Positions 12,170 to 22,304 of a stretch of 64,000 bases of DNA are shown here, piece after piece. Numbering within the stretch: position 1 is the first letter of the stretch; each line of letters begins with the position of its first letter. The DNA is taken from assembly GCF_030264295.1 (NCBI RefSeq), contig NZ_CP127173.1, positions 2,301,501-2,365,500 on the forward strand. Reading direction: 5' to 3'. The DNA is from Amycolatopsis nalaikhensis. Lineage in GTDB: Bacteria; Actinomycetota; Actinomycetes; Mycobacteriales; Pseudonocardiaceae. The notes beneath the pieces are model-generated. The model ran no database searches. It was given only the letters and a program-made list of their open reading frames with translations, and had not been told where the DNA came from. The position numbers and the translations under genes are program-made.

Positions 12170-13582
12170 ATGTCCACCACCCCTCTCATGGCCCGTCGGC
12201 CGGGCCGGTACCCGGTGCCGCGCCGGGCGCACCCGGTGCGGGGGTGGTGGCGGGATGCCTCGGGGCTGACCGCGTGGCTGAGTCTGTTGTTCGTCGTCGC
12301 TCTGTGGGTGGCGGGCCGTGGCCTCCAGAATCTGGGCTCCGTTTCCGGGTTCTTGACTTCGGCGGGTCGCCTGGCCGGGTTGCTGTCGGCGGACCTGCTC
12401 TTGCTCCAGGTTCTGCTGATGGCACGGATTCCGTGGGTCGAGCGCAGCTACGGACAGGACGAACTGGCCCGCCGCCACCGGCTGGCGGGGTTCACGTCCA
12501 TTACCCTGATGGGGACCCACGTCGTGCTGATCACCGTGGGCTACGCCGTCACCGACCGCTCCGGGTTGGTCTCCGAGGCCTGGGATCTGGTCACCACCGA
12601 CCCTGGCATGCTCCTGGCGACAGCCGGAACGGCGGCGCTGGTCATGGTGGCGATCACCTCTGTCCGGGCCGCGCGCCGCAGATTGCGCTACGAATCCTGG
12701 CACCTGCTGCACCTCTATGCCTACCTGGGCGCCGGACTCGCGCTGCCTCATCAGCTGTGGACAGGCGCCGACTTCACGAGTTCGACGGCCGCGACGGTGT
12801 TCTGGTGGAGCGCCTACGCCACCGCGGCCGCCGCGATCCTGGTGTTCCGCCTCGGGATGCCGGTGTGGCTGAACCTGCGGCACCGGCTCGTCGTCGAGCG
12901 GGTGGTGCCCGAAGCCCGTGGAGTCGTGTCGATCCACCTCCGCGGCCGCCGCCTCGACCGGCTGCCCGTGGCCGCCGGCCAGTTCTTCCTCTGGCGCTTC
13001 CTGCACGGCACCGGCTGGACACGCGGCAACCCGTTCTCCTTGTCCGCGGCTCCCGACGGCACACGGCTGCGCATCACGGCGAAGGACCTCGGCGACGGCA
13101 GCCGAAGGCTGGCGACCGTGCCCGCCGGAACGCGGGTCCTGTTCGAGGGTCCCTACGGCAGGCTGACCGAGTCCGTCCGAAGTGGACGAAAGGTGACGAT
13201 GGTCGCCTCGGGGGTCGGCATCACGCCGTTGCGTGCGCTGCTGGAAGCTCTGCCCTACCGGCCCGGCGAAGCCGTGCTGCTGTACCGGGCAAGGAACGAA
13301 GGCCAGCTGCTGTTCCGCCACGAGCTCGACGCGCTCGCCGCGCGCCGCGGCATCCGGGTGCACTATCTGCTGGGGCGGCGGGGCCGAGGCCGGGTGTCCT
13401 GGCTGCCCGCACAGTACGGAGCGGCGGCCGGCGAGACGATCCTGCAGTACCTCGTGCCCGACATCGCCGAGCACGACGTCTACGTCTGCGGACCGGACGC
13501 CTGGACCGAAGCGGTGATCGCCTCCGCCCGTGGCGCCGGAGTACCGCGATCGCACATCCACTCCGAACGGTTCGGCTGGTAG
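12170..13582 (+). CDS. Ferric reductase-like transmembrane flavoprotein
   Basis: A 470-aa membrane protein. Residues about 30-230 hold six hydrophobic helices with His residues placed as in b-type haem ferric reductases (RRHRLAGF, GTHVVLI, SWHLLHLYAY, LPHQLW). Residues about 235-470 are a ferredoxin-reductase-type FAD/NAD(P)H module with NPFSLSAAP (flavin), MVASGVGITPLRALLE (nucleotide) and DVYVCGPDAW. It would pass electrons from cytoplasmic NAD(P)H across the membrane. The ATG follows CGGGAG. It is followed 15 bases later by an FMN-binding protein, which is a natural acceptor. Confidence 0.88.
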   Translation: MSTTPLMARRPGRYPVPRRAHPVRGWWRDASGLTAWLSLLFVVALWVAGRGLQNLGSVSGFLTSAGRLAGLLSADLLLLQVLLMARIPWVERSYGQDELARRHRLAGFTSITLMGTHVVLITVGYAVTDRSGLVSEAWDLVTTDPGMLLATAGTAALVMVAITSVRAARRRLRYESWHLLHLYAYLGAGLALPHQLWTGADFTSSTAATVFWWSAYATAAAAILVFRLGMPVWLNLRHRLVVERVVPEARGVVSIHLRGRRLDRLPVAAGQFFLWRFLHGTGWTRGNPFSLSAAPDGTRLRITAKDLGDGSRRLATVPAGTRVLFEGPYGRLTESVRSGRKVTMVASGVGITPLRALLEALPYRPGEAVLLYRARNEGQLLFRHELDALAARRGIRVHYLLGRRGRGRVSWLPAQYGAAAGETILQYLVPDIAEHDVYVCGPDAWTEAVIASARGAGVPRSHIHSERFGW

Positions 13583-13597
13583 GGAAGGAAAGCCGCC

Positions 13598-14065
13598 ATG
13601 CGCAGAATCGTCGTCACCGCTGCCGCGACCATCTCCGTCGTGGTGCTGCTGTTCAGCTACCGCACCAGCACGGACCCGGCCCCGGCAGCGTTGCCGAGCC
13701 AGCGCATCGGCGCACCGCGACCGCTCGGCGGGCCGACCACTCCGCCGGCCGCACCCGCGCCGGCCCCGACAGTCGGCACGTCCGGTGGGGACGGCACCTA
13801 CACCGGGGACGCGGTGGACACCCGCTACGGCCCCGTCCAGGTCCGGATCACCGTGGCCGGTGGCCGGATCACGGCGGCCCAGGTCCTGCAGGTCCCGCAG
13901 GAAAGCAGCCGGGACGTCCGCATCAACTCCGCCGCCGTCCCGGTCCTCGTCGACGAGACCATCCGGGCGCAGAGCGCCCAGGTCGACACCGTCAGCGGCG
14001 CCACCTACACCTCCGAGGGCTACCAGCAGTCCCTTCAGTCCGCGATCGACGCGGCGCACCGGTGA
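13598..14065 (+). CDS. Exported FMN-binding domain protein
   Basis: A 155-aa protein with an N-terminal signal or anchor helix (residues 4-20), a Pro/Ala-rich linker (to about 62) and an FMN-binding domain. The motif SGATYTS at residues 133-139 is the ApbE flavinylation site, with Thr136 expected to carry FMN through a phosphoester. It acts outside the membrane as a one-domain electron carrier. An AAGGAAAG ribosome binding site precedes the ATG. Its stop overlaps the start of apbE, the enzyme that would load the flavin, and it follows the ferric reductase that would reduce it. Confidence 0.88.
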   Translation: MRRIVVTAAATISVVVLLFSYRTSTDPAPAALPSQRIGAPRPLGGPTTPPAAPAPAPTVGTSGGDGTYTGDAVDTRYGPVQVRITVAGGRITAAQVLQVPQESSRDVRINSAAVPVLVDETIRAQSAQVDTVSGATYTSEGYQQSLQSAIDAAHR

Positions 14066-14799
14066 CCGCCCCGGCGCCGGAACGCCGGTCGTGGACCCAC
14101 CCGATCATGGGCATGCCGGTCAGCCTCCACATCCGGGCCGACGGCGTCCGCACCGACCCGGCCGTGGAGCCGGCCGTGGCCGCCGTGTTCACGCACCTGC
14201 GTGCGGTCGACCGGCTGTTCAGCACCTACCGCCCCGGCAGCCAGATCAGCCGTATCCGGCGCCACGTGCTGCCCCCGGAGCAGTGGCATCCGTGGGTGAG
14301 CGAGGTCGTCCGGCTGTGTGAGCGGGCCCGAGAACGGAGCGACGGTTGGTTCGACGCCTGGCTCCCCGGCGGCTTCGACCCGTCCGGGCTCGTCAAGGGC
14401 TGGGCGGTGGAAAACGCCGTCGAGCAGTTGGCCCGGCTCGGGCCCTACGACCACTACCTCAACGCCGGCGGCGACATCGCGGCCGTGGTCCGGCCCGGCG
14501 CGACCGCCTGGCGCGTGGGGATCGAAGACCCGCGTGACCGGACGCGGCTGCTCTCCGTCCGCGAGCTGCGGACCGGTGGTCTCGCGACGTCCGGCACCGC
14601 GGCCGGCGGCGCCCACATCGTCGACCCGCGCACCGGCGGCCACCCGACCGCCATCCGGTCGGTGACGGTCGCCGGTCCCACGCTGCTGTGGGCCGACGTC
14701 TACGCCACTGCCGCGATCGCCCGCGGCGGCGACGTCGAACGCTGGATCCGCGCGCGGGCGCCGGACTACCAGGCGTTCGCCGTCCTCCGAGCCTCCTGA
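14062..14799 (+). CDS. apbE: ApbE-type FAD:protein FMN transferase
   Basis: A 245-aa enzyme that moves FMN from FAD onto Thr of FMN-binding proteins. Family motifs appear in order: THPIMGMPVSLHI, LFSTYRPGSQISRI, GLVKGWAVENAV, the FAD site LNAGGDIAAV and TSGTAAGGAHIVDPRTG. The GTG start overlaps the previous stop (GTGA). No signal peptide or lipobox is seen, unlike many ApbE proteins, so flavin loading may happen in the cytoplasm before export. The protein is shorter than Gram-negative ApbE, as is usual for actinobacterial forms. Confidence 0.9.
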   Translation: MTAPAPERRSWTHPIMGMPVSLHIRADGVRTDPAVEPAVAAVFTHLRAVDRLFSTYRPGSQISRIRRHVLPPEQWHPWVSEVVRLCERARERSDGWFDAWLPGGFDPSGLVKGWAVENAVEQLARLGPYDHYLNAGGDIAAVVRPGATAWRVGIEDPRDRTRLLSVRELRTGGLATSGTAAGGAHIVDPRTGGHPTAIRSVTVAGPTLLWADVYATAAIARGGDVERWIRARAPDYQAFAVLRAS

Positions 14800-14822
14800 G
14801 ACCCGACACTGTGAAGGACTTC

Positions 14823-15398
14823 ATGACCACCCTGAACGGCCTGCCCGCCCACGTCCTGCTCGTGCACGCCATCGTCGTGCTGCTGCCGCTCGCCGCCTTG
14901 CTCCTGGTGCTGAGCGCGGTATGGCCCGCGGCACGCCGCAAGCTGGCCGGACCGAACGCCCTGCTGTCGCTGCTCGTCGTGGTTCTGGTGCCGATCACGA
15001 CGGACGCGGGCGAATGGCTCGAACGCCGTGTCGCACCCAGCCCCCTGGTCCGCACGCACACCGAACTCGGCGACACCGCGCTGTGGGTGGCGATCCCCGT
15101 GGCCGTGCTGGCTTCGGTGATCTGGTGGCGGCGCCGCGAAAGCCTGTCGATCGGCCTCTCCGCCACGCAACCGGCAGCCGGACACGACTCAGGCTGGACC
15201 GTCGTCACCAGCCGGGTCACCACGCCCCGCCGGACGTTCCTCGCTCCTGCCTCGAAGGCGGTGACCGTCGTGATCGCGGTGCTCGCGGTCGTGGCCGCCG
15301 GTGCGGCCTGCTACGACATCTACCGCATCGGCGACTCCGGTGCCCAAGCCAGCTGGCAAGGGCAGTTCACCGCCGCCGCGCCGCGTCCCTCGCACTGA
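14823..15398 (+). CDS. DUF2231-type membrane protein
   Basis: A 191-aa protein with four hydrophobic helices. The start, GLPAHVLLVHAIVVLLPLAA, and the PITTDAGEWLERRV / HTELGD segments match the DUF2231 pattern of conserved His and acidic residues. The ATG has GAAGGA just upstream. It is 23 bases behind apbE and is likely the last gene of the electron-transfer operon. DUF2231 proteins often sit with membrane redox systems; its role here, perhaps haem or quinone related, is inference. Confidence 0.7.
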   Translation: MTTLNGLPAHVLLVHAIVVLLPLAALLLVLSAVWPAARRKLAGPNALLSLLVVVLVPITTDAGEWLERRVAPSPLVRTHTELGDTALWVAIPVAVLASVIWWRRRESLSIGLSATQPAAGHDSGWTVVTSRVTTPRRTFLAPASKAVTVVIAVLAVVAAGAACYDIYRIGDSGAQASWQGQFTAAAPRPSH

Positions 15399-15494: not shown

Positions 15495-15518
15495 CCGGAT
15501 ACCCCCGGGTGTATCCGG
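15495..15518. promoter_or_regulatory. CstR/CsoR-type operator 1, upstream of DUF302 gene
   Basis: A 24-bp palindrome centred on ATACCCCCGGGTGTAT with CCGG at both ends and one mismatch. It shares the TACCCC...GGGGTA core with three further sites at 16107, 16380 and 16732. CsoR-family repressors (Cu-sensing CsoR, persulfide-sensing CstR) bind such GC-tract palindromes flanked by TA steps. It lies 33 bases before the DUF302 start. Confidence 0.75.
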
Positions 15519-15550
15519 TGGTCGAAAGACGACGAAAGAGGTGATCGGCG

Positions 15551-15943
15551 ATGGAGTATGGCTTCGCTGTTCGATCGGCAGCGCCGATGGGCGAAACGGT
15601 CGAGCGGGTACGGGCGGCCCTGGCCCAGCAGGGGTTCGGCGTGCTGACCGAGATCGACGTGCAAGCGACGCTGCGGGCGAAGCTCGGCGAGGAGAGCGAG
15701 CCTTACTTGATCTTGGGGGCGTGCAACCCCCAGCTGGCGCATCAGGCGCTGGGCGTGGATCGGCGGATCGGGTTGTTGTTGCCGTGCAACGTCGTGGTGC
15801 GCACCGAGGGCGGGTCGACGGTGGTGGAGGCGCTGGACCCGCAGGTGATGGTCAGCGTGCCGGGCGATGCCCGGCTGCAGCCGATCGCTGACGAAGCCGG
15901 GCGGCGCTTGCGTACCGCGTTGCAGGCGGTGAACGACGGCTGA
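15551..15943 (+). CDS. DUF302 protein
   Basis: A 130-aa cytoplasmic DUF302 protein (FAVRSAAPMGETVERVRAAL, EPYLILGACNPQLAHQAL, LLLPCNVVVR). The family is small, alpha/beta and often encoded beside sulfur-transfer or CsoR-regulated genes. Two cysteines (GACNP, LPCNV) are conserved-looking and could bind persulfide or metal. An AAAGAGGTGATCGGCG leader precedes the ATG. With operator 1 directly upstream it belongs to the CstR-like regulon. The biochemical role is unknown. Confidence 0.85.
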   Translation: MEYGFAVRSAAPMGETVERVRAALAQQGFGVLTEIDVQATLRAKLGEESEPYLILGACNPQLAHQALGVDRRIGLLLPCNVVVRTEGGSTVVEALDPQVMVSVPGDARLQPIADEAGRRLRTALQAVNDG

Positions 15944-16106
15944 CGGTGATCGCGCCGGTCGCAGCGTCTGCCGAGGCCACATTCTCGACCCACCGGCAAG
16001 CCTGGGTGTTGCGGAGTTTCGGACGATGGTGACAGCACCGTCCTTCCAGCGGCAGGCTCCCCGTGTTTCGAGGATGTGGTTTACGCCGCAGACACTGACA
16101 CCTGCA

Positions 16107-16120
16107 TACCCCCGGGGGTA
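16107..16120. promoter_or_regulatory. CstR/CsoR-type operator 2
   Basis: TACCCCCGGGGGTA, a perfect 14-bp palindrome, identical to the site at 16732. It lies 40 bases upstream of the small Cys-rich gene at 16161. The 217-base stretch between 15943 and 16161 holds nothing else recognisable. Confidence 0.78.
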
Positions 16121-16160
16121 CCTTGACAGTGACAGGTCGTCGAGTGAAGGAGATCCACGG

Positions 16161-16328
16161 ATGTGTCGTCGTGTGACGTGTTCGCGTTGCGGGAAAGCCA
16201 CCTACGCCGGGTGCGGCCAGCACGTGGAGCAGGTGCTTGCCGGTGTGCCGGCCTCGCGGCGGTGCGCACGCCCGTCCGAGCCCGGCGCCGTGGCCCGCAT
16301 GTTTCGCAGGCTGCTCGGCCGGGACTGA
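16161..16328 (+). CDS. Small Cys-rich protein, 55 aa
   Basis: The frame begins at ATG 16161, eight bases after AAGGAG; a longer upstream frame is unsupported. The product starts MCRRVTCSRCGKATYAGCGQ and holds five cysteines (2, 7, 10, 18, 35), with CxxC followed by Cys and His, suggesting a zinc ribbon or a sulfur carrier. Residues 20-35 (HVEQVLAGVPASRRC) form a short helix and turn; the tail is basic. Similar small proteins are common in actinobacteria but have no assigned function. It is flanked by CstR-type operators on both sides, so it probably responds to the same signal. Confidence 0.75.
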   Translation: MCRRVTCSRCGKATYAGCGQHVEQVLAGVPASRRCARPSEPGAVARMFRRLLGRD

Positions 16329-16379
16329 CCCGTTCCTGCCCGCGATGCCGGACACAGCTGAGCGAGGCCGCGGAATTGC

Positions 16380-16393
16380 TACCCCCCGGGGTA
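16380..16393. promoter_or_regulatory. CstR/CsoR-type operator 3, upstream of the repressor gene
   Basis: TACCCCCCGGGGTA, palindromic apart from the central pair. It lies 24 bases before the repressor start, which suits negative autoregulation. Confidence 0.75.
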
Positions 16394-16399
16394 TGTTGA

Positions 16400-16687
<288 letters not shown>

Positions 16688-16689
16688 CC

Positions 16690-16719
16690 ACGTCGGCGCA
16701 GAAATTCCAGCGCCGACGT
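16690..16719 (+). terminator. Stem-loop terminator after cstR-like gene
   Basis: ACGTCGGCG and CGCCGACGT form a perfect 9-bp stem around a 12-base loop starting three bases after the stop. A short T-rich tract (TGTTTC) follows. It separates the repressor from the next operator-driven operon. Confidence 0.65.
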
Positions 16720-16731
16720 GTGTTTCATGGA

Positions 16732-16745
16732 TACCCCCGGGGGTA
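16732..16745. promoter_or_regulatory. CstR/CsoR-type operator 4, upstream of rhodanese-cstB-tauE operon
   Basis: TACCCCCGGGGGTA, a perfect 14-bp palindrome, 23 bases before the rhodanese start. It is the only site in front of the three-gene sulfur operon. Confidence 0.78.
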
Positions 16746-16768
16746 CCTGATGAGTGTGGAGGTACGAC

Positions 16769-17083
16769 GTGGCAGTGCGGGAAGCGACAATCGAGGAACT
16801 GGAGCGGGCGCTGGCGGAGGGTGCGCGGCTGGTGGACGTGCGCACGCCAGGTGAGTTCGCCGAAGGGCATGTCCCCGGGGCGGTCAACGTGCCGCTGGAG
16901 CAGATCCCTGACGCGGGCCGGGAGTGGGCCGGGCAGCGGGTGTGGCTGATCTGCCAGTCCGGGGCGCGCAGCCTGCGCGCGGCGCAGGCGCTGGATGCCC
17001 TCGACGTGGCAGCGGTGTCGGTGGCCGGCGGCACCGCCGGCTGGCAGCGCGGTGGCCGGCCCGTACGAACCGGAACCAACTGA
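16769..17083 (+). CDS. Single-domain rhodanese sulfurtransferase
   Basis: A 104-aa cytoplasmic rhodanese with VDVRTPGEFAEGHVPGAVNV and the six-residue active loop in LICQSGARS, whose Cys carries the persulfide. GTG 16769 is five bases from GGAGGT and is preferred over a GTG five codons upstream. It is first in an operon with the MBL-rhodanese protein and a TauE-type exporter. It would transfer sulfane sulfur to or from the next enzyme. Confidence 0.88.
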   Translation: MAVREATIEELERALAEGARLVDVRTPGEFAEGHVPGAVNVPLEQIPDAGREWAGQRVWLICQSGARSLRAAQALDALDVAAVSVAGGTAGWQRGGRPVRTGTN

Positions 17084-17119
17084 GGCAGTAACCGCACTCG
17101 CGCGGGAAGGAGACAGCAC

Positions 17120-18502
17120 ATGCTGGACGTGCAGGTGATCGAGACATCGTCACTGGGAGACCGCAGCTACCTCGCCCACGACGGCGAGTCCGCCGTCGTG
17201 GTGGATCCGCAGCGCGACATCGACCGGATCGTCGCCCTGGCAGGCCGGCTGGGCGTGCGGATCGAGTGGGTACTGGAAACCCACGTGCACAACGACTACG
17301 TCTCCGGCGGGCTGCAGCTGGCCCGGCTGACCGGCGCCCGCTACGGGATCGCCGCGGCCGACGAGGTGCCCTACGACCGGGTGCCGCTGCACGACGGGGA
17401 CGTGCTGGAAGTGTCGGCGCGGATGCGGATCCGGCCGGTCGCGACGCCGGGCCACACCTTCCACCACCTCTCCTACCTCCTCGACGGTCCCACCGGGCCC
17501 GAGGGGGTCTTCACCGGCGGCTCGCTGCTGCTGGGCACCACCGGCCGCACGGACCTGCTCGGCCAGGACCACGCGCACGAACTGGCCCGCCGGCAGCGGA
17601 CCTCCGCGCAGCGGCTGGCACAGCTGCTGCCGGACGGGGCGAACGTGTGGCCCACCCACGGGTTCGGCAGCTTCTGCTCGGCCACCCAGGCCGACGGGGA
17701 CGCCTCCACCATCGGCCGGGAGAAGCAGCTCAACCCGGCCCTGACCCTGGCCGAGGCCGAGTTCGTCGAACAGACCCTCGCCGGCCTGGACGCCTACCCC
17801 GCCTACTACGCCCACATGGGTGCGCGCAACACCGCCGGACCCGGCCCGATCGACCTCACCCCCGTCCGCACCGCCGACCCCGCCGAGCTGCGGCGCCGGG
17901 TCGACGCCCAGGAATGGGTCGTCGACCTGCGCTCCCGCAAAGCCTTCGTGCACTCGCACCTGGCCGGCACGATCAGCCTCGGACTGGACGGGCCGATGGC
18001 CACGTGGCTGGGCTGGCTCATCGACTGGGGCGCGCCGATCACCCTGCTCGGCGACACCCCTGAGCAGGTCACCCAGGCGCAGCGGGAACTCGCGCGCATC
18101 GGCATCGACCGGCCCGCCGCCGCGGCCACCGGCGACCCCGCCCAGTGGGCCGGTGGCCGCCACGAGCAGGTCACCACCATGGTGACCGCGTCGTTCACCG
18201 ACCTCGCCCACGCCCTGCGGCACGGCCACGCCGACCACCTGCCCGCCCCGACCGTGGTGCTCGATGTGCGGCTGGCCCACGAGTGGCGCGACTCCCACGT
18301 GCGGGGCGCCGTGCACATCCCGCTGCCCGAGCTCCCGCACCGGCTCGACGAGGTGCCCGCTGGCCCGGTGTGGGTGCACTGCGGCAGCGGCTACCGCGCC
18401 GCCGCCGCGGCATCCTTGCTCGCCCGCGCGGGCCGCGCGGTGGTGCTGGTCGACGACGCCTTCGCCGACGCCGCCGACGCCGGCGTCCCCATGGCGGCCT
18501 GA
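17120..18502 (+). CDS. CstB-like persulfide dioxygenase-sulfurtransferase
   Basis: A 460-aa fusion: an N-terminal metallo-beta-lactamase fold (ETHVHNDYVSG, ATPGHTFHHLSYLL, FTGGSLLLGTTGRTDLLG, WPTHGFGSFC), a middle degenerate rhodanese without the catalytic Cys (residues about 255-340) and a C-terminal rhodanese with loop VHCGSGYRAA. In CstB this arrangement oxidises low-molecular-weight persulfides to thiosulfate. GAAGGAGAC precedes the ATG. It lies between the rhodanese and a TauE/SafE exporter in the CstR-like operon. It is a paralogue of the enzyme at 4061-5440, which is controlled by a different sensor. Confidence 0.88.
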   Translation: MLDVQVIETSSLGDRSYLAHDGESAVVVDPQRDIDRIVALAGRLGVRIEWVLETHVHNDYVSGGLQLARLTGARYGIAAADEVPYDRVPLHDGDVLEVSARMRIRPVATPGHTFHHLSYLLDGPTGPEGVFTGGSLLLGTTGRTDLLGQDHAHELARRQRTSAQRLAQLLPDGANVWPTHGFGSFCSATQADGDASTIGREKQLNPALTLAEAEFVEQTLAGLDAYPAYYAHMGARNTAGPGPIDLTPVRTADPAELRRRVDAQEWVVDLRSRKAFVHSHLAGTISLGLDGPMATWLGWLIDWGAPITLLGDTPEQVTQAQRELARIGIDRPAAAATGDPAQWAGGRHEQVTTMVTASFTDLAHALRHGHADHLPAPTVVLDVRLAHEWRDSHVRGAVHIPLPELPHRLDEVPAGPVWVHCGSGYRAAAAASLLARAGRAVVLVDDAFADAADAGVPMAA

Positions 18503-18505
18503 CCG

Positions 18506-19294
18506 ATGCTGGTGGCCGCCGCCCTGGCCGGGCTGCTGATCGGGTTCGCGCTCGGACTGCTCGGCGCGGGCGGGTCGATCCTGGCCGTGCCCGCTCTCGT
18601 CTACGCCGCCGGGCAGCCACTCGCCTCCGCGATCCCGGCCTCCTTGCTGATCGTCGGCGTATCCTCGGCCGCGGCGGTGATCCCGCGGCTGCGGGCCGGC
18701 ACTGTGCGCTGGCCGGTCGCGCTGGTCTTCGGCGCCGCCGGTGTTCCCGCCGCCTTCGCGGGGACGGCTCTGGGGCGTCTGGTGCCGCCGCGGTTCCTGC
18801 TGCTCGGGTTCGCCGTCCTGATGGCCGTGGTCGCCGTCCGGATGCTCCGCGAACCCACCGGCACCGGTGGAGCGGCGTGCCGGACCAGCGGCGGCCGGGT
18901 CGACTGGCGGGCGTGCCTGCCCAAGGCCCTCGCCGCCGGGCTCATCGTCGGGCTGCTGACCGGGCTGTTCGGCGTGGGCGGCGGGTTCCTCATCGTGCCC
19001 GCCCTGACTCTGCTGCTCGGTCTGGACGCCGGCGAAGCGGTCGCCACGTCGCTGGTCATCATCGTGCTCAACTCCGCCGCCGGGCTCGCCGCCCACGCCG
19101 GCGCGCCCCTCGATTGGACCACCACCGGCGTCTTCGGCGCCGCCGCCGTCCTGACCGCGCTGGCCGGTGGCCGGCTGGCCCGGCGGCTACCCGTCCGGAC
19201 CATCCGCCGCGGCTTCGCCTACCTCGTCCTGGTCATCGCCGCGGCCATCGCTGTCACCGCCATCGTCGCGCCGGCCACCCTGCCCACCCGCTGA
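18506..19294 (+). CDS. TauE/SafE-family anion exporter
   Basis: A 262-aa membrane protein with about eight helices and the duplicated family motif: LGAGGSILAVPALVYAAG near residue 20 and FGVGGGFLIVPALTLLLG near residue 160. TauE/SafE proteins export sulfite, sulfoacetate or related anions. It begins three bases after the CstB-like stop and so would export the oxidised sulfur product of that enzyme. It is the last gene of the operon; a stem-loop lies 190 bases downstream. Confidence 0.88.
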   Translation: MLVAAALAGLLIGFALGLLGAGGSILAVPALVYAAGQPLASAIPASLLIVGVSSAAAVIPRLRAGTVRWPVALVFGAAGVPAAFAGTALGRLVPPRFLLLGFAVLMAVVAVRMLREPTGTGGAACRTSGGRVDWRACLPKALAAGLIVGLLTGLFGVGGGFLIVPALTLLLGLDAGEAVATSLVIIVLNSAAGLAAHAGAPLDWTTTGVFGAAAVLTALAGGRLARRLPVRTIRRGFAYLVLVIAAAIAVTAIVAPATLPTR

Positions 19295-19530: not shown

Positions 19531-20577
19531 TCACTTGAGGGTCTGGTTGGCCTTCGCTGCGAAGTCGTTGGTGTAGGTCTTGGCCAGGTCGATCGTGTGC
19601 CCCTTGACGTCGGGGTTGAAGGCGGAAAGCACGTTGAGCACCGTCTGCGGGCCGTCCGCGGGCATCAGGCCATCGGTGGTGTAGATGCCCTTCTCGCTCT
19701 TCAGCGCGGCAACGTAGGCGGCCTTGCCGACGCCCTTGTAGTAGTCGGCCGGCATCTTGTCGGCGATCTCTTCGGGTGTGTGGGTGCTGATCCAGTGCAT
19801 GGTCTCGACGTAGGCGTTGGCGAGCTTCTGCACGATGTCGGCGTGCTTGGTGACGTAGTCGGTGCTCATGTACAGCGATGACGCCGGGTAGACGCCGCCG
19901 AGAGCGGCGCGAGCGCCGTCGGCGGTGCGCGTGTCGAGGAGGATCTTCGCCTGGCCGCTGTTCAGCAAGGCGGAGACCGTGGGTTCGGTCGTCATGCCGC
20001 AGTCGATGTTCTTGTGCTGCATGGCGGCGATGAACGTGTTGCCGGCCTGGACGCCGCTCTCGTGGATCTGGTCGACCGGAACGCCGTTGCGGACGGCGAG
20101 GTAGCGGGTGAGGAAGTCGGTGGACGAGCCGATGTCGGTCACCCCGAGGCTGCGGCCCTTCCAATCGGCCGGTGACTTGATCTGGCCTGCGACGTCGGAC
20201 CGGCACAGCTCCACTTCGCCGGGCACCTGCAGCATCTGCACCACCGCTTCGGTGGCCTTGCCCTTGCCCTGCAGGTCGATGTTGTGGTCGTAGAAGCCGA
20301 CCACGCCGTCGATCTTGCCGGCGATCATGTCGTTTTCGGCGTTGACCCCGGCCGGTTCGTCCTCGAGGTGGACTTCGAGGCCTTGCTGCTGGTAGTAGCC
20401 GAGTTGCTGGGCGAGCATCGCGGGCAGGTAGATCTGCTTGTCCAGGCCGCCGACCATGATCGTCACGACGGGCTGGCCCTGGGCGTTGCTGGTGGAGCCG
20501 GGCGAGCTGCCGCACGCGGTCAGGGACACCGCGAGCGCGGCGCCCGCCGAGAGGGCGAGCAGTTTTCGGGACACCAT
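19531..20577 (-). CDS. ABC importer substrate-binding lipoprotein, NMT1/THI5-like
   Basis: A 348-aa lipoprotein: basic start MVSRKLLALSAG, hydrophobic core and lipobox LTAC at about residue 22, then an NMT1/SsuA-type periplasmic-binding fold (KQIYLPAMLAQQLGYYQQQG, FYDHNIDLQGKGK, GVTDIGSSTDFLTRYL, DCGMTTEPTVSALL). GGAGT lies upstream of the ATG. It is third in the order ATPase-permease-binding protein. Relatives bind sulfonates, nitrate, thiamine precursors or aromatic acids; the ligand cannot be decided. The nearby CitA/CitB-type system might respond to the same compound. Confidence 0.85.
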   Translation of the reverse strand: MVSRKLLALSAGAALAVSLTACGSSPGSTSNAQGQPVVTIMVGGLDKQIYLPAMLAQQLGYYQQQGLEVHLEDEPAGVNAENDMIAGKIDGVVGFYDHNIDLQGKGKATEAVVQMLQVPGEVELCRSDVAGQIKSPADWKGRSLGVTDIGSSTDFLTRYLAVRNGVPVDQIHESGVQAGNTFIAAMQHKNIDCGMTTEPTVSALLNSGQAKILLDTRTADGARAALGGVYPASSLYMSTDYVTKHADIVQKLANAYVETMHWISTHTPEEIADKMPADYYKGVGKAAYVAALKSEKGIYTTDGLMPADGPQTVLNVLSAFNPDVKGHTIDLAKTYTNDFAAKANQTLK

Positions 20578-20615
20578 GAGGGGAACTCCTTCGTTCACAG
20601 CGGGGTTTCGGAGAT

Positions 20616-21497
20616 TCAGAGTCCGGCCGCGTCGGTGGACAGCGCCGGGGGCCGCCAGGACAGCAGGCGGTTTTCCAGGAGGGTGATGAGTCCTTCGGCG
20701 ATCAGTGCCACGACGGCGATGATCAGCATGGCCGCGAAGACGCCGTTGGGGTTGAAGGTGCCTTGGGCCTGCCGGATCAGCAGGCCCAGCCCCTGGTCCG
20801 CGCCGAGGAACTCCCCGACGATCGCGCCGATCAGCGCGAAGCCGAAGCTGACGTGCATGCTCGCGATGATCCAGGTGACCGCCGAGGGCAGCACCACCTG
20901 ACGCGTGACCTGACCGCGCGAGGCGCCCAGGATCCGCACGTTGGCGATGAGGTTGCGGTCGACCTCGCGGGCGCCCTGGAAGGCGTTGAAGAACACCGCG
21001 AAGAACACCAGGACCACGGCCAGCATGACCTTCGAGCTCAGGCCGAGACCCAGCCACACCACGAAGATCGAGCCGAGCACGATCCGCGGGATCGAGTTCA
21101 TGATCTTGATGTAGGGGCCGAAGATGTCCGCGAGAACTCGGATCCGCCCCAGGGCGATGCCGAGCACGATGCCGAACACGACACCGATCACGAAGCCGAG
21201 GATGGCTTCTTCCAGGGTGACCCACGCCTGGGTCCACAACGGACCGACGGAGGTGCCGTGCTGGGCCCAGTCGACGATCTGGGCGACCACCTGGCTGGGC
21301 TGGCCGAAGAAGAACGGGTCGACGATCCCGGCCCCGGCCGCGAGCTGCCAGCCGCCGACCACGATGACGGCGACGGCGAGCCTGGCGGAGTAGACGAACC
21401 AGCGGCGCCGGGTAGCGGCGGCCTTCCTGGCGTTGGTCACCGTGTTCTTCACGATCGGTTCGGCGATGTTCATCGTGTCCCTCTCGGCGGTGGTCAT
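20616..21497 (-). CDS. ABC importer permease, SsuC/TauC-like
   Basis: A 293-aa BPD_transp_1-type permease with about six helices; the coupling-loop motif reads EVDRNLIANVRILGASRGQV. The ATG giving MTTAERD overlaps the corrected stop of the ATPase gene (ATGA), which fixes this start; MNIAEPIVK eight codons later is an alternative. Because of a one-base insertion in the ATPase gene the two genes appear as one open frame, but they are separate proteins. The partner binding protein is 38 bases downstream. Confidence 0.85.
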   Translation of the reverse strand: MTTAERDTMNIAEPIVKNTVTNARKAAATRRRWFVYSARLAVAVIVVGGWQLAAGAGIVDPFFFGQPSQVVAQIVDWAQHGTSVGPLWTQAWVTLEEAILGFVIGVVFGIVLGIALGRIRVLADIFGPYIKIMNSIPRIVLGSIFVVWLGLGLSSKVMLAVVLVFFAVFFNAFQGAREVDRNLIANVRILGASRGQVTRQVVLPSAVTWIIASMHVSFGFALIGAIVGEFLGADQGLGLLIRQAQGTFNPNGVFAAMLIIAVVALIAEGLITLLENRLLSWRPPALSTDAAGL

Positions 21498-22304
21498 GCC
21501 GCGCTCGTCTGCCGCTGGTAGGCCAGCTGGACCTCGTCGCGCAGGGACTCCCAGATCCGCTGGTAGAGCCTCGACGAAATGCGCGTCGAAGCGGATCTCC
21601 TGCACGGTGCGCGGCCGTGGCAGGTCAACCGGGAACACCGCCTTGACCGTGGCCGGCCCGGCGGTCAGCACGACGACCTTGTCGGCGAGCGCGATCGCTT
21701 CTTCCAGGTCGTGGGTGACGAACACGACCGACGGCCGCGTCAGCTCCCACAGCGCGAGCAGCTCGTCGGACATGATCGAGCGGGTCTGCACGTCCAGCGC
21801 GGAAAACGGCTCGTCCATCAGCAGAATGCGCGGCTCGTTGATCAGGCTCTGGGCCAGCGCGACCCGCTTGCGCATGCCACCGGAAAGCTGGTGGGGATAG
21901 CGGTCCTCGAAGCCGGACAACCCGACGCGGCGCAGCCAGTCCCGGGCCCGCGCATGGGCGTCCTTCTTGGACACACCGTGGAACAGCGGTCCGGCGGCCA
22001 CGTTCGCCAGCACGCTCTTCCACGGCAGCACCGCGTCGTTCTGGAACACGAACCCGATCCCGTCGCCGATACCGGTGACCGGCGCGCCGTCCACCAGAAC
22101 CTGCCCCTCGGTAACGCCTTCGAGACCGGAGATCAGGGTCAGCGTGGTCGACTTGCCGCAGCCGGTCGGCCCGACCACGGCGCAGAACTCCCCGGCGCCG
22201 ATCTCCAGGTCGAGGTCCCGCAGCGCGGTGTAGTCGTCGCCGGCCGGAGTCGCGAACCGCTTGGTGACGTCCCGCAGCACGATCGCGGGTGGTGAGCTGG
22301 TCAT
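21494..22304 (-). pseudogene. ABC importer ATPase, SsuB/TauB-like, frameshifted near the 3' end
   Basis: The ATPase is intact to residue about 244: Walker A VVGPTGCGKST, Q-loop FVFQNDAVLPW, signature HQLSGGMRKRVALA, Walker B RILLMDEPFSALD and H-loop VFVTHDLEEA. Then the frame breaks at plus-strand GAGCCTC (21566-21572). Removing one base gives HFVE-LYQRIWESLRDEVQLAYQ, the normal family ending, a stop overlapping the permease start and an exact 269-aa protein. As sequenced, the frame reads through the permease as a false 562-aa fusion. It may be a sequencing error or a real fusion-generating mutation. The catalytic core is unaffected. Confidence 0.85.

Follow-up and report, generated by a model that had tools for sequence, protein, structure and literature searches.

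A predicted persulfide-type CsoR regulon in Amycolatopsis nalaikhensis and a one-base difference in operator spacing

What does a CsoR-family repressor sense when the His of its copper site is replaced, and how many of the genes around it does it govern? Both questions are raised by a gene cluster of Amycolatopsis nalaikhensis, contained in a 64,000-nt stretch of contig NZ_CP127173.1 (hereafter the window), in which genes for a DUF302 protein, a Cys-rich peptide, a CsoR-family repressor, a rhodanese, a CstB-type persulfide dioxygenase and a TauE exporter follow each other in this order on the + strand. The cluster very probably represents a regulon of the ScCsoR/CstR type that controls itself, serves the detoxification of sulfane sulfur (persulfide) and includes DUF302 and the peptide. 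We observe the gene content, the operators, the loss of copper-site residues, conserved co-occurrence and the separation of sulfur and copper operators by one spacer base; that persulfide is the effector, that the regulator represses, and what DUF302 and the peptide do is inferred. The core circuit is already known; the extension of the regulon and a rule on operator spacing are the additions of this analysis.

The repressor and its operators

The repressor (16418..16687, + strand, 89 amino acids) belongs to the CsoR/RcnR family, matching Pfam PF02583 (Trns_repr_metal, E 6e-20) and CsoR-family chains of the PDB. Matches to the NCBIfam models FrmR and RicR were far below their cut-offs and were not used. 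Its two conserved cysteines, Cys35 and Cys64, are 29 residues apart, and Gly60 takes the place of the ligand His, as the initial annotation had read from the sequence; the Cys-His-Cys arrangement that binds Cu(I) is absent. Among the genes of the protein-led sample described below, this position is Gly in 29/30 and Ser in 1/30 of the sulfur-class genes, while the 79 copper-class genes are all Cys-His-Cys. Tyr34 and Glu83, which we take to be second-shell allosteric residues of copper CsoR, are invariant in 79/79 copper-class genes; in the sulfur class they are replaced by Asp/Glu/Gly and Lys/Arg, respectively, and they are lost here too. A structural relative, 7mq1, is named csoR in the PDB and is presumably a CstR; its chain has Asn at the ligand position where Gly is found here.

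Palindromic sites lie 23-40 bp before the first start codons of the DUF302 gene, the peptide gene, the repressor gene and the rhodanese-CstB-TauE genes, in agreement with the initial annotation. Three of them match TACCCC-NN-GGGGTA exactly: operator 2 (TACCCCCGGGGGTA, 16107-16120, 40 bp before the peptide start at 16161), operator 3 (TACCCCCCGGGGTA, 16380-16393, 24 bp before the repressor start at 16418, its right arm making a -10-like TATGTT) and operator 4 (TACCCCCGGGGGTA, 16732-16745, 23 bp before the rhodanese start at 16769). Operator 1, before DUF302, is part of an 8+8 inverted repeat, CCGGATAC...GTATCCGG (15495..15518), to which the coordinate 15495 of the initial annotation belongs; its core TACCCCCGGGTGTA (15500-15513, 37 bp before the start at 15551) has an altered right arm with one mismatch, so that the description of four near-identical operators holds for three and slightly overstates the likeness of this one. 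All four have the spacing TAC-X8-GTA, and none is a TAC-X9-GTA site of the copper type.

In the window alone, the loose motif count is modestly unusual: TACCCC-NN-GGGGTA with up to two mismatches matches 4 times against 1.11 expected, and 3/100 shuffles also reach 4. With TACCC-N4-GGGTA and up to one mismatch, five matches are found (the four operators and one at 12502) against 0.31 expected, a number reached by 0/100 shuffles. A search of all 10.67 Mb of the genome finds 7 exact copies in just two places, 3 in this cluster and 4 in a second one, compared to 0 matches for the reversed pattern. These genome-scale counts rule out chance palindromes.

The other cluster (locus L009) also holds sulfur genes, and the association between operator and genes is thus present twice in one genome. 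Its repressor paralogue (52% identity) has Gly at the same ligand position, its peptide paralogue is 58% identical, and its DUF302 gene begins 15 bp after a TauE-like gene. Translations read by eye further reveal its own CstB-like gene, TauE, a rhodanese and a thioredoxin-like gene, and Pfam identifies a Pyr_redox_2 flavoprotein and a class V aminotransferase.

The genes behind operator 4 encode sulfur enzymes. The first product is a single-domain rhodanese (16769..17083, +; Pfam Rhodanese, E 2.3e-15) with, by eye, a CQSGAR active loop. It is followed by a 460-residue metallo-beta-lactamase/rhodanese fusion (17120..18502, +; Pfam Lactamase_B and Rhodanese), which matches PDB entries 3tp9 over residues 14-438 (E 6.2e-52) and 3r2u in two stretches (E 3.1e-41); the label CstB-type comes from 3r2u, which we take to be the CstB of Staphylococcus aureus. 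The third is a TauE/SafE sulfite exporter (18506..19294, +; Pfam TauE, E 5.9e-48). Close relatives of the cluster genes in named genomes are from actinomycetes. In Prauserella flavalba (L018) and in a metagenome-assembled genome of Streptosporangiales (L019), the repressor is 99% and the dioxygenase 95% identical to those of the window, which, judged by sequence, looks like recent horizontal transfer; both contigs stop at most 440 bp upstream of the peptide gene.

One spacer base between sulfur and copper operators

A first comparison comes from the same genome, which encodes two Cys-His-Cys CsoRs, one of them adjoining a CopZ-like gene. The motif with one more spacer base, TACCCC-NNN-GGGGTA (X9), occurs exactly four times in this genome, three of them within 1.6 kb at the CopZ-adjacent copper CsoR. 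Of 80 family genomes, 21 have exact X8 motifs and 66 have exact X9 motifs. Outside the own genome, one X8 locus was taken per genome, 20 in all; 15 of them contain sulfur-cluster genes by tblastn, and at L075 the X8 site precedes a flavoprotein that by eye resembles sulfide:quinone oxidoreductase. At the X8 loci without sulfur genes (L064, L065, L068, L070), the sites look by eye like chance occurrences in reading frames or a hairpin. X9 loci were examined for 29 of the 65 further genomes that have such a match: CopZ or a copper CsoR is found at 20, and none of the 29 has the peptide, DUF302, dioxygenase, rhodanese or TauE, or an exact X8 site. At L109 (genome 684025-684039), an exact X9 site stands about 11 bp before an open reading frame for a small, probably membrane protein with a His-rich tail, by eye a candidate copper gene.

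Because these loci had been chosen by their operators, the comparison was repeated starting from the protein, with a copper-CsoR query against 101 genomes of the order. The sample consisted of 30 loci and 80 regions from the listed rows (weak-scoring rows first, not all rows), with operators not looked at beforehand; it also took in four own-genome loci, among which L009 had been fetched for its operators. It comprises 114 distinct genes, 79 Cys-His-Cys, 29 Cys-Gly-Cys, one Cys-Ser-Cys, four Cys-Tyr-Cys and one left unclassified (L161, with an X9 site and a gap at the ligand column). Copper-class genes carry uniquely TAC-X9-GTA in 58/79 cases (49 with exact arms, 9 with one mismatch) and uniquely X8 in 0/79; the remaining ones have no site (18/79), ambiguous sites (2) or X10 (1). 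For the sulfur-class repressor genes the result is X8 in 25/30 (two from the own genome) and X9 in 0/30. The control scan downstream of the start codon gave sites for 2/30 sulfur-class and 0/79 copper-class genes. The Cys-Tyr-Cys genes (L174, L175, L177, L179) form a further CsoR class, with no TAC/GTA operator in 3/4 and an ambiguous site in 1/4.

The earlier set, of 57 distinct genes chosen in part by their operators, contains 34 Gly-type genes with X8, 1 with X9 and 7 with none, two more X8 rows that are Gly by sequence, 10 His-type genes with X9 and 2 with none, and one Ala-type gene with X8. Counter to the rule is L039, a Gly-type gene with a one-mismatch X9 site. Published operators also fit: the S. 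lividans copper CsoR operator ATATACCCCTNAGGGGTATAT is TAC-X9-GTA (PMC3902906), and the ATACC-n6-GGTAT operator of S. coelicolor ScCsoR is TAC-X8-GTA (PMC7533328).

In the phylogenetic tree, built from every second copper-class sequence (39/79) and leaving out sequences shorter than 60 residues, a single supported branch (95/92) parts the sulfur class from the copper class. The genes of the spacing comparison are therefore not independent; the separation goes back to one event or a few, retained by the descendants, and the value of a Fisher test that treats the genes as independent is no probability. Relative to Firmicute CstR the tree places the repressor only tentatively (support 71/73, a long branch and a partial PDB sequence). 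The residue at position 23 also follows the classes: 78/79 copper-class genes have Arg, whereas sulfur-class genes have Ala, Gly, Thr or His. This makes Arg23 a candidate for the residue that reads the operator spacing.

These comparisons bear directly on the idea that the cluster is a copper regulon, with a CsoR/RicR-type Cu(I) sensor and a metallothionein-like peptide, by analogy to MymT. The family of the repressor, the Cys-rich peptide and a G-tract TAC/GTA operator common to copper CsoRs all speak for it. However, the repressor has lost His60 along with Tyr34 and Glu83, the latter two invariant throughout the copper class; its operators are X8, whereas the CopZ-adjacent copper CsoR of the same genome has X9; sulfur-cluster genes are missing from all family X9 loci examined, most of which have CopZ or a copper CsoR; and the products of the regulated genes are enzymes of sulfur metabolism. 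The residues, the spacing of the operators and the gene content lead us to reject the copper reading as very improbable. Sensing of persulfide rather than copper, as the initial annotation proposed, is supported by the loss of the three residues, the X8 spacing and the ScCsoR-like enzymes, the residue pattern being suggestive at the level of sequence.

The one-base difference is not mentioned in the portions of the literature that we searched, and it may be in print in CstR papers. On the present evidence it is somewhat probable that one spacer base (X8 versus X9) acts as an insulating code against cross-regulation between persulfide and copper CsoRs in actinomycetes, and that the widespread unnamed Cys-rich peptide and DUF302 are new components of sulfane-sulfur homeostasis.

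DUF302 and the Cys-rich peptide as proposed regulon members

The peptide gene (16161..16328, +) encodes 55 residues with the pattern MC-x4-C-x2-C-x6-GCG-x-H...RC and has no match in Pfam or NCBIfam at E <= 0.001. At a permissive Pfam threshold (E <= 10), five peptides returned only zf_UBZ, for two of them (E 0.18 and 0.34), and a structure model (mean predicted local distance difference test, pLDDT, 74.1; predicted TM-score 0.45) found no fold match at E <= 0.001. In 43 aligned peptides (41 from a first scan and two own-genome copies), Met1, Cys2, Cys7, Cys10, Gly17-Cys18-Gly19, His21 and Arg34-Cys35 are invariant, and Cys37 is present in 42/43, the window copy being the exception with Arg. 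This conservation is valid for those rows only, as some peptides of a class-wide set deviate around Cys35 and Cys37. That class-wide search, with a two-row model, found the peptide in 97/246 genomes; in one family (f40), many small genomes (about 1.2-1.5 Mb) retain one or two copies. In PLSDB, the peptide occurs on 53/72,556 plasmid records, mostly from Rhodococcus (25), Clavibacter (16) and Arthrobacter (5), and 38 of the 40 matches listed have no listed gene beneath them, in a gene table that is incomplete.

The first scan, of named genomes, gave 42 loci, of which 41 are real and one (L059) is a false match. When one mismatch is allowed, 20/42 have a site in the 150 bp upstream and 29/42 in the 600 bp upstream, compared to 0 and 0 for the reversed control; the 430 kb around these loci hold 52 exact motifs and 0 of the reversed pattern. 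Six peptide genes have their own site, exact in L037, L038 and L046 and with one mismatch in L052, L054 and L058, and no tblastn match to the other cluster genes in flanks of up to 6 kb, less on short contigs. In the protein-led sample (33 peptide genes from 29 loci outside the own genome), 14/33 have an exact-arm X8 site within 200 bp upstream, and the downstream control with any spacing gave 1/33.

The DUF302 protein (15551..15943, +; 130 residues, with Cys58 and Cys79) is a clear member of its family, with a Pfam score of 91.9 bits against a cut-off of 23 (PF03625, E 2.3e-26) and an AlphaFold2 model of mean pLDDT 94.4. The motifs of both cysteines are nearly invariant in 21 aligned rows. 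Its fold is that of 1j3m, 1q9u and 7tj1, which give no usable function; DUF302 structures, released in 2004, carry the label of hypothetical or uncharacterised proteins. DUF302 is found in 30/121 genomes of the order. At 28 usable loci of the 29 examined (L108 had no DUF302 match), a sulfur-type CsoR match lies within a stretch of at most 3.2 kb in 17/28, and an X8 site within 800 bp of 17/28 genes, compared to 3/28 for the downstream control. A link between DUF302 and a CsoR-family operator did not appear in the accessible portions of the literature searched on DUF302 with CstR, rhodanese, CsoR or persulfide; in Thermithiobacillus, DUF302 is reported within a sox cluster.

A narrower circuit, in which the repressor governs only itself and rhodanese-CstB-TauE and the sites at DUF302 and the peptide are by-standers, would agree with S. 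coelicolor, where the circuit has four genes and two tested neighbours were not controlled (PMC7533328), and with the single mismatch of the DUF302 operator. Several further observations weigh against the extended regulon or its operators. The right G-tract of operator 1 is damaged, an X8 site stands directly in front (220 bp) of just 7/28 DUF302 genes, and 10/28 have no site in the scanned region, with one X10. No site is found for 16/33 protein-led peptide genes, others having X7 (one) or X9 (two), and 13/42 loci of the first scan lack a site within 600 bp (eight actinobacterial, four from Deltaproteobacteria/Myxococcales, and the false match). Among sulfur-class repressor genes, 5/30 have no site of any spacing in the scanned region, and the T of the -10 hexamer is missing from operators 1 and 4, so that in the window operators 2 and 3 only show this pattern. 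Nevertheless, both genes carry or follow X8 sites in many genomes found through their proteins, the peptide also does so in isolation, and both recur in the second cluster; we therefore regard by-stander sites as very unlikely and retain DUF302 and the peptide in the predicted regulon. Their membership, proposed in the initial annotation, is thus supported by the second cluster and the sequence comparison across genomes, although the gene set is not entirely new, having been listed on Arthrobacter plasmids.

Outside the regulon, the same block flanks both sulfur clusters (12302-15398 in the window; 14638-17836 in L009, some genes by eye): a ferric-reductase-like/NAD-binding protein, an FMN-binding protein, ApbE and a DUF2231-like protein (below the Pfam cut-off), followed by DUF302. 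No operator motif with up to 2 mismatches was found in the block at either cluster; a possible role is an electron-transfer link to sulfur oxidation. On the other side, genes on the - strand for an NMT1-like substrate-binding protein and, by eye, an ATP-binding cassette (ABC) permease and ATPase (19531-22304) converge on the cluster; we would guess at uptake of the sulfonate/taurine type.

The predicted circuit and its relatives

In the circuit that we propose, the reduced repressor would occupy the TAC-X8-GTA operators. Where these precede the repressor and peptide genes, their right arm runs into a -10-like element, and bound repressor would cover the promoter and block transcription. The -10 pattern TAnnnT, with T four bases after the right-arm TA, is present at 15/20 sulfur-repressor, 27/37 peptide and 35/49 copper sites. 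By analogy with ScCsoR, persulfide or polysulfide would modify Cys35, with Cys64 assisting, and the repressor would leave the DNA. The rhodanese, the CstB-type dioxygenase and TauE would then move, oxidise and export the sulfur. DUF302 and the peptide would act as further members; our guess is that they are small thiol proteins for carrying or buffering sulfane sulfur or a metal, for example zinc.

A close parallel is the ScCsoR circuit of Streptomyces coelicolor (PMC7533328), with a CsoR-family repressor whose Cys37 and Cys66 are also 29 apart, a persulfide dioxygenase, a rhodanese, TauE and several ATACC-n6-GGTAT operators, from which, in experiments in that organism, polysulfide frees ScCsoR with both cysteines required. 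It differs in that four genes are described and the term DUF302 is absent from its main text, while here DUF302 and the peptide have their own sites. The 'SUL module' of an Arthrobacter plasmid (PMC6305408) combines CsoR, a small hypothetical protein, two rhodaneses, a sulfur dioxygenase, TauE and DUF302; it has an additional major facilitator superfamily transporter, and the relevant passage deals with gene content, not operators. On Arthrobacter pA40H2, whose published module carries both DUF302 and the peptide, we find the peptide gene placed between those of the repressor and the dioxygenase and surrounded by four X8 sites, three of which have exact arms. The CstR regulon of S. aureus likewise couples a persulfide-sensing CsoR paralogue to an H2S-oxidation operon with cstB (PMC5480029). 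The copper CsoR of S. lividans shares the type 2 operator with its TAC/GTA dyad and G-tracts, but differs in the X9 spacing, the targets copZA and csoR, and Cu(I) sensing (PMC3902906).

The repressor could also respond to thiol oxidation in general, as TTHA1953 does, instead of sensing persulfide specifically. TTHA1953 has two cysteines; under non-reducing conditions it lost DNA affinity with H2O2 or Cu(II), though not with NaHS (PMC10318464). Its operator and regulon (Sox) differ from those described here, and the gene content of the cluster is that of persulfide removal as in ScCsoR, which makes a general sensor unlikely and favors persulfide as the signal.

Taken together, the spacing rule provides a simple sequence test for distinguishing CsoR genes of the persulfide type from those of the copper type in the sampled genomes, and it raises the question of how two paralogues that share a cell read a difference of a single base. 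The extended regulon ties to persulfide stress, by a directly testable regulatory prediction, the uncharacterised DUF302 family, and likewise by regulatory prediction a peptide that is widespread in the class and is matched by no Pfam or NCBIfam model.

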